A stretch of DNA of 64,000 nucleotides from contig JAIVJV010000009.1 in NCBI GenBank assembly GCA_020199835.1, positions 620,001-684,000 on the forward strand, written 5' to 3'. Source of the DNA: Acidobacteriota bacterium. GTDB taxonomy: Bacteria; Acidobacteriota; Blastocatellia; Pyrinomonadales; Pyrinomonadaceae. The notes beneath the pieces are model-generated. The model was not told where the DNA came from, did not search any database, and saw nothing but the letters and a program-made list of their open reading frames with translations. Of this stretch, positions 53,401 to 54,048 are shown one piece after another. The position numbers were made by a program, and so were the translations under genes. The first letter of the stretch is position 1; the number at the start of each line of letters is the position of its first letter.

Positions 53401-54048
53401 CTACTCCTTATCCTTACCCGCGTCAAGTAGATAATTACCACTTTGATTGAGTGTGTTTCCTTCGGAGCGGCGGTCTTCGTTGACGAGCCTGGAGACGAAA
53501 AAGATGTAATGGGCGCCCGAAAGGACGGCAAAGGCGAAAACTGTTGCGTAAATCGTTGGCAAATACCAGCCAGTGCCGTATGGAACGCTGGCGCCAAACA
53601 TGATGGCCGCGATCGCCACAATCTGAACCGTGGTGTTGATTTTTCCCAGGATTGACGGACGGAAACCGCGAAATCCAGTGACGATGTTGATGGCGGCCGC
53701 GCCGACGAGGATGAAGACATCCCGGCTGATTACTGCCACGGTCACCCAAAACGGCACCGGCAGGTGTGATGGCACAGGCTGTGGGAAAACCGCCCGCATC
53801 GAAAGGACGACGAAGGCCGTGACCAGCATCAGCTTGTCCGCTATGGGATCGAGAATGGTGCCGAGTTGTGAATGCTGGTTAAAACGGCGCGCCAGCAGGC
53901 CGTCCAGCCCGTCCGTGACTCCCGCGACGACGAAAATCGCGAGAGCGAGTGAGAATTTTTGGTAGAAGAGAAGCGAGACGAAGACAGGGATCAAAACCAT
54001 CCGGAACACCGTTAGCAGGTTCGGGACGGTAACAATCCGAGATGACAC
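53401..54048 (-). CDS. pgsA: Phosphatidylglycerophosphate synthase PgsA, 3' end supplied by the transposon
   Basis: A 215-residue CDP-alcohol phosphatidyltransferase with several membrane helices and the full active-site motif D-G-L-D-G-L-L-A-R-R..G-T-I-L-D-P-I-A-D. It joins CDP-diacylglycerol and glycerol-3-phosphate in the membrane. Codons 204-215 (GNYLLDAGKDKE) and the TAG come from the IS1595 element. Across the insertion, the host sequence reads AGT-TGA, so the original protein ended at Ser203. The GTG start follows the metallophosphoesterase stop by 11 bases. The core is intact and the tail change is probably harmless. Confidence 0.93.
   Translation of the reverse strand: MSSRIVTVPNLLTVFRMVLIPVFVSLLFYQKFSLALAIFVVAGVTDGLDGLLARRFNQHSQLGTILDPIADKLMLVTAFVVLSMRAVFPQPVPSHLPVPFWVTVAVISRDVFILVGAAAINIVTGFRGFRPSILGKINTTVQIVAIAAIMFGASVPYGTGWYLPTIYATVFAFAVLSGAHYIFFVSRLVNEDRRSEGNTLNQSGNYLLDAGKDKE
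53418..53439 (-). repeat. Right terminal inverted repeat of the IS1595 element
   Basis: On the minus strand it reads GGTAATTATCTACTTGAC, then G-C-G-G. It also encodes part of the 12 new C-terminal codons of pgsA. Confidence 0.93.
53440..53447 (+). repeat. Target-site duplication, right copy (ACTTTGAT)
   Basis: ACTTTGAT directly abuts the right inverted repeat and equals 48814-48821. It encodes, on the minus strand, the last original codons of pgsA. Confidence 0.92.

Follow-up and report, generated by a model that had tools for sequence, protein, structure and literature searches.

In the window, by which we mean the whole 64,000-nucleotide stretch of DNA analysed here, an IS1595-family transposon of 4618 bp (48822-53439) separates a CDP-alcohol phosphatidyltransferase gene from dnaK, and its right terminal inverted repeat supplies the predicted C-terminus and the stop codon of the lipid enzyme. 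With a probability of about 0.92, we regard this arrangement as the outcome of an ordinary insertion in a tolerant gap, which would have extended the open reading frame (ORF) by 12 residues and kept the dnaK promoter; the sequences compared show no sign of stop-codon targeting by the element or of a function for the tail. The locus shows clearly how a transposon end turns into predicted host protein sequence, at a site that packs a stop codon, a -35 box and possibly a repressor site into a few shared bases, and it illustrates how an insertion survives in a tolerant gap between two constrained features, while knowledge of the lipid-enzyme gene and of dnaK is left unchanged. The source genome, that of a soil acidobacterium, is a draft (4.87 Mb, 83% complete, 18 contigs), with the window located on contig 12.

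The terminal inverted repeats of the element are identical at 18 of 18 bases, with the left repeat GGTAATTATCTACTTGAC at 48822-48839 on the plus strand and its exact reverse complement at 53422-53439 on the minus strand, and similarity decays further inward. The element is flanked on the left (48814-48821) and on the right (53440-53447) by the 8-bp target-site duplication ACTTTGAT. A perfect 18-bp repeat together with a perfect 8-bp duplication, both located where they were predicted, is no chance match. The transposase, a DDE enzyme encoded at 52231-53208 on the minus strand, matches PF12762 (DDE_Tnp_IS1595) with 126.6 bits (cut-off 27, E 1.1e-36) and NF033547 with 210.1 bits (cut-off 75), and its zinc ribbon matches PF12760 with 46.3 bits (cut-off 25.4). 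Three features of the IS1595 family, a DDE transposase with zinc ribbon, an 8-bp duplication and matching terminal inverted repeats, are present, and a target duplication of 8 bp is documented for IS1595-type elements in the available text of two reports (PMC5704250; PMC5424208).

The gene order on the minus strand is metallophosphoesterase, CDP-alcohol phosphatidyltransferase, transposon, dnaK, dnaJ and an hspR-like gene. The ORF of the CDP-alcohol phosphatidyltransferase (PgsA/Cls-like, PF01066; 53401-54048, minus strand) encodes 215 amino acids, 12 of which, GNYLLDAGKDKE, are supplied together with the TAG stop codon (53401-53403) by the right end of the transposon (element-derived codons 53401-53439, minus strand), whereby the inverted repeat is read as GNYLLD. 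The occupied locus on the minus strand is ...CTC AAT CAA AGT / GGT AAT TAT CTA CTT GAC GCG GGT AAG GAT AAG GAG TAG, with the right copy of the duplication (minus strand ATCAAAGT) within AAT-CAA-AGT, and the frame is read into the repeat since the end of the duplicated 8-mer coincides with a codon boundary. Joining the flanks across the element gives AAT CAA AGT TGA and an ORF of 203 amino acids, the TGA of which, now cut off from its gene, resides at 48811-48813 (minus strand) within the dnaK promoter. The preliminary description had placed the transposon at the stop codon of pgsA with the inverted repeat as predicted C-terminus, and exact repeats, duplication and reading frame agree with it in every detail, including the joined CAA AGT TGA, the tail and the TAG inside the element. 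The terminal repeat is thus predicted to be translated as host protein, presuming expression of the ORF. The new TAG also represents the first three bases of the second hexamer of a weak inward promoter-like site in the right end, TTGACG-N17-TAGTAT (53398-53426, minus strand; 9 of 12 consensus positions), which alone is not significant, with six such sites found in the region versus 4.2 expected.

Relatives provide the empty site. The gene is located beside dnaK in 24 distinct relatives (16 + 14 loci minus six duplicates, L129, L130, L131, L132, L134 and L138), in 23 of which the junction is readable, while the 24th has Ns; three Mesorhizobium loci (39-40% identical) and L020-L032, which showed no dnaK in the vicinity of the gene, stand outside this census. 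Within the genus, 11 of the 15 other genomes gave a usable locus, as G009 is cut by a contig end, G002 is a fragment and G001 and G005 have no close match. An element between the lipid gene and dnaK is present in none of the 23 readable relatives, the string [NDS]YLLDA is absent in every frame of the 29 loci L004-L032, and none of the element-free relatives examined encodes the GNYLLDAG tail. The uninterrupted junction that had been anticipated in related genomes exists as an exact ATCAAAGTTGACA in G014 (L006) and as AATAAAGTTGACA in G003 (L004), which confirms the empty site independently.

The proteins of the relatives end at 193 to 208 amino acids, with tails after the NEDR region that differ in length and sequence. 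G011 (L005, junction near locus position 2100) has an uninterrupted gene for 199 amino acids that stops with the TGA in the TTGACA -35 box, a register that it shares with the window. In the nearest relative G003 (92% identical), a TAG follows NEDRR at a length of 194 amino acids, succeeded by the junction given above; the continuation past this stop reads ACACTCAAATAAAGTTGACA, compared with ACACTCAATCAAAGTTGACA in the joined window and ACTCAATCAAAGTTGACA in G014, where the stop is elsewhere. The length of 203 residues stated earlier for the old protein is what the joined flanks give and is in line with the register of the G011 stop, but the stop of G003 at residue 194 makes a stop loss before the insertion indistinguishable from one after it, so that a pre-insertion length of 203 amino acids is what we infer. 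It is conceivable, if unlikely, that the 203-residue form never existed and that the element entered an untranslated gap behind an ancestral stop at 194, with a later stop loss that added 21 new residues and not 12. The G003 stop would fit such a course of events, as would the order of the nearest genomes, which is not resolved by a tree of 16 proteins (L008 left out); G011, on the other hand, demonstrates that the stop-in-promoter state exists without the element. This state in G000, the genome of the window, and in G011 is either shared or has arisen twice.

On the other side of the element, dnaK (46711-48639), dnaJ (45456-46622) and the subsequent hspR-like MerR repressor gene (44975-45448) are all encoded on the minus strand; the hspR-like protein has the HspR models as its two best matches and reaches 99.7 bits against NF047375, under the cut-off of 105. 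The predicted dnaK promoter TTGACA-N17-TATATT (48786-48814, minus strand) scores highest among the promoter-like matches in the region, with 11 of 12 consensus positions, and the old TGA constitutes bases 2-4 of its -35 box TTGACA, an overlap that the preliminary description did not mention, nor did it name the IS1595 family of the transposase. In 23 of 23 readable relatives TTGACA is exact upstream of dnaK, always with ACTCA 7 further bases on. By its position and conservation, GTTGACA-N7-ACTCAGG (48795-48815, minus strand), which overlaps the -35 box, is a candidate HAIR-like operator of HspR. According to the accessible portion of the literature on HspR-controlled heat-shock operons, the HAIR consensus is CTTGAGT-N7-ACTCAAG (PMC6102357); the window has the dnaK-dnaJ-hspR-like order, and TTGACA-N7-ACTCA resembles the consensus, with an equal 7-bp spacer, whereas its left arm shares no more than 4 or 5 of the 7 bases of CTTGAGT and the operator is putative in this group. 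The HAIR motif was discarded as a genome-wide marker, since in its loose form it is about as frequent as the reversed control. After the insertion, the dnaK side still reads ATCAAAGTTGACA, because ATCAAAGT was duplicated, and both the -35 box and the candidate HAIR-like operator are whole.

The preliminary description had further assumed that an essential PgsA stayed functional only because it was hit after its last codon. Against the PgsA model TIGR00560 the window protein scores 96.8 bits, under the curated cut-off of 109.1, whereas a paralogue in the same genome (L125:734-1477) passes with 152.6 bits; a curated PgsA identity is thereby rejected and the essentiality of the gene becomes doubtful. 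With 97.7 bits against the ClsA model NF053678 (cut-off 240) and 7drj, a CDP-diacylglycerol--glycerol-3-phosphate 3-phosphatidyltransferase, as the sole PDB relative by sequence (1.8e-13, query residues 6-183), the protein may be either another enzyme of the PgsA-like type or one that resembles cardiolipin synthase. The matched domain finishes well ahead of the element-derived tail. Also the last approximately nine residues of the old protein are variable and dispensable across relatives, the nearest of which stops nine codons earlier. The earlier interpretation was thus right about the tail, but too strong about essentiality and luck.

We propose that an IS1595-family DDE transposon with its passengers would have cut an AT-rich 8-mer, which was thereby duplicated, within the short tolerant gap that extends from the last conserved residues of the lipid enzyme to the dnaK -35 box. 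The ORF, if expressed, would then run in frame through the right inverted repeat, while the duplication would have rebuilt the dnaK side with a presumably functional -35 box and operator, leaving the old stop codon in place as part of the former. The position would reflect a preference for AT-rich targets, combined with the loss by selection of insertions that damage the enzyme or the promoter of the chaperone gene. Thirty-one placements of an 8-mer leave intact both the AAAGTTGACA block and every codon up to residue 194, with AAAG as upstream promoter border chosen by the analyst (12 of 23 relatives have AAAG, as read by eye); six of the 31, including the real site, have at least 6 A/T, and 10, about a third, lead to the GNYLLD frame and tail.

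Related elements inform on the choice of the target. If one mismatch is allowed, 14 of 162 genomes of the class contain the terminal repeat; if two are allowed, 26 of 119 genomes of the family contain a close variant, some matches at two mismatches being chance. The 32 loci retrieved yielded five more elements with both ends and an exact 8-bp duplication, L093 (3477 bp), L095 (1929 bp), L108 (1075 bp), L115 (1009 bp) and L122 (1149 bp), besides L094 (1919 bp) with a repeat pair without exact duplication. The six duplicated 8-mers, including that of the window, contain 6-8 A/T each and have AT-richness, not sequence, in common; 8-mers with at least 6 A/T make up 7.0% of the host part of the window, a rough comparison as the composition of the window is applied to elements from other genomes. 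Three of the five elements interrupt ORFs, namely a RAMP-domain ORF (437 amino acids when joined) in L093, a DUF4440-containing ORF (195 amino acids) in L095 and an ORF of 82 amino acids in L108, where the entering ORFs end with GDYLLDAG, GDYLLDTR and GDYLLDTRLEYKELISE, respectively. Such ends indicate that, in one frame, the sequence of the repeat generally leads to its being translated when an ORF enters it.

That the insertion abuts the stop codon exactly could point to an element that recognizes gene ends or stop codons, comparable to Tn7, which uses the end of glmS for site-specific insertion. With three of five other elements inside ORFs and 8-mers alike in AT-richness only, stop-codon targeting is rejected as an explanation and is the least probable of the readings considered. 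Extremely improbable is also a selected insertion, be it for a tail that alters the enzyme or for upstream DNA, with the AT-rich element end as an upstream element of the dnaK promoter; the open frame into the repeat and the exactly kept promoter core agree with selection, while the occurrence in one genome only, the variable tails of the relatives and the share of sparing placements that produce the same frame and tail argue against it. It is very improbable, too, that the terminal repeat of this IS1595 group has been kept translatable such that a larger share of insertions at gene ends would be tolerated. Upon entry, one frame of the repeat would stop at once (TAA/TGA) and another would give a short polar G[DN]YLLD[AT].. 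peptide with an early stop, and this peptide is present also where ORFs enter L093, L095 and L108. For the ordinary insertion in a tolerant AT-rich site, further luck is needless as an explanation.

Transposon ends translated at the 3' ends of genes are already known in other bacteria, and the case of the window is ordinary. In Coxiella burnetii, as described in the accessible part of the report, QMITE1 and QMITE2 reach into functional genes at their 3' ends, to which they contribute residues and stop codons; the QMITE table lists, among others, 12 residues for pntAA, and a tolerance of C-termini to change is suggested by the authors (PMC5896051). As in the window, the end of a mobile element provides the last residues and the stop of housekeeping genes; in contrast to the short MITEs described there, the window harbours an IS1595 transposon of 4.6 kb that carries a transposase gene and passengers and the site of which also borders a heat-shock promoter. 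The element itself resembles MTnSag1 and tISCpe8, the latter titled a lincomycin resistance element, in its IS1595 DDE transposase, terminal inverted repeats, 8-bp duplication and passengers, but these elements, as far as the available text goes, have 25-bp repeats and are mobilisable, whereas the window element has 18-bp repeats and uncharacterised cargo (PMC5704250). A literature search found no paper on this locus, by which absence from the literature is not shown.

The passengers comprise an ORF of 393 amino acids without a family above cut-off (48963-50144, plus strand), an ORF of 132 amino acids (50168-50566, minus strand), an HTH regulator of 81 amino acids (50641-50886, plus strand), a GAF-domain protein of 238 amino acids (51169-51885, minus strand) and an ORF of 66 amino acids; searched against defence-system models, the HTH protein alone was matched. 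On contig 16 of the same genome, a second IS1595-type transposase, 42-44% identical to that of the window, is located near a 65% identical copy of the 132-amino-acid passenger and near HTH genes (L121:4045-4881; cf. 50168-50886 in the window), which suggests that a passenger module was exchanged between elements. An ORF of 54 amino acids (53223-53387, plus strand) diverges from the transposase gene, with 14 bases between the two starts, and L093 has a counterpart in the same place (42% identity, E 1.3e-9), so that it is possibly an accessory gene of this IS1595 group. The related element in L093 lies inside a RAMP-superfamily gene (L093:1820-2854), which we take to be CRISPR type III-like.

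The terminal repeat of the transposon is also carried by 17 MITE-like units of 107-121 bp in genomes of relatives (L096-L120; e.g. L106:2847-2957, L109:2358-2467 and L103:2676-2786), L112 being kept out of the list of these approximately 111-bp units. Fifteen of the 17 are without an exact flanking direct repeat of at least 3 bp, while one has 5 and one 4, and a pair of copies from one genome shows 96% identity that extends as far as the repeat ends and stops there; the units hence look mobile without the expected 8-bp duplication. For the approximately 111-bp units in the genus of G137, the flanks are too diverged for a reading of the empty site. In G018:C189 and G139:C135, contigs assigned to two genera, matches to the repeat occur at identical coordinates, perhaps as one contig has been binned twice.
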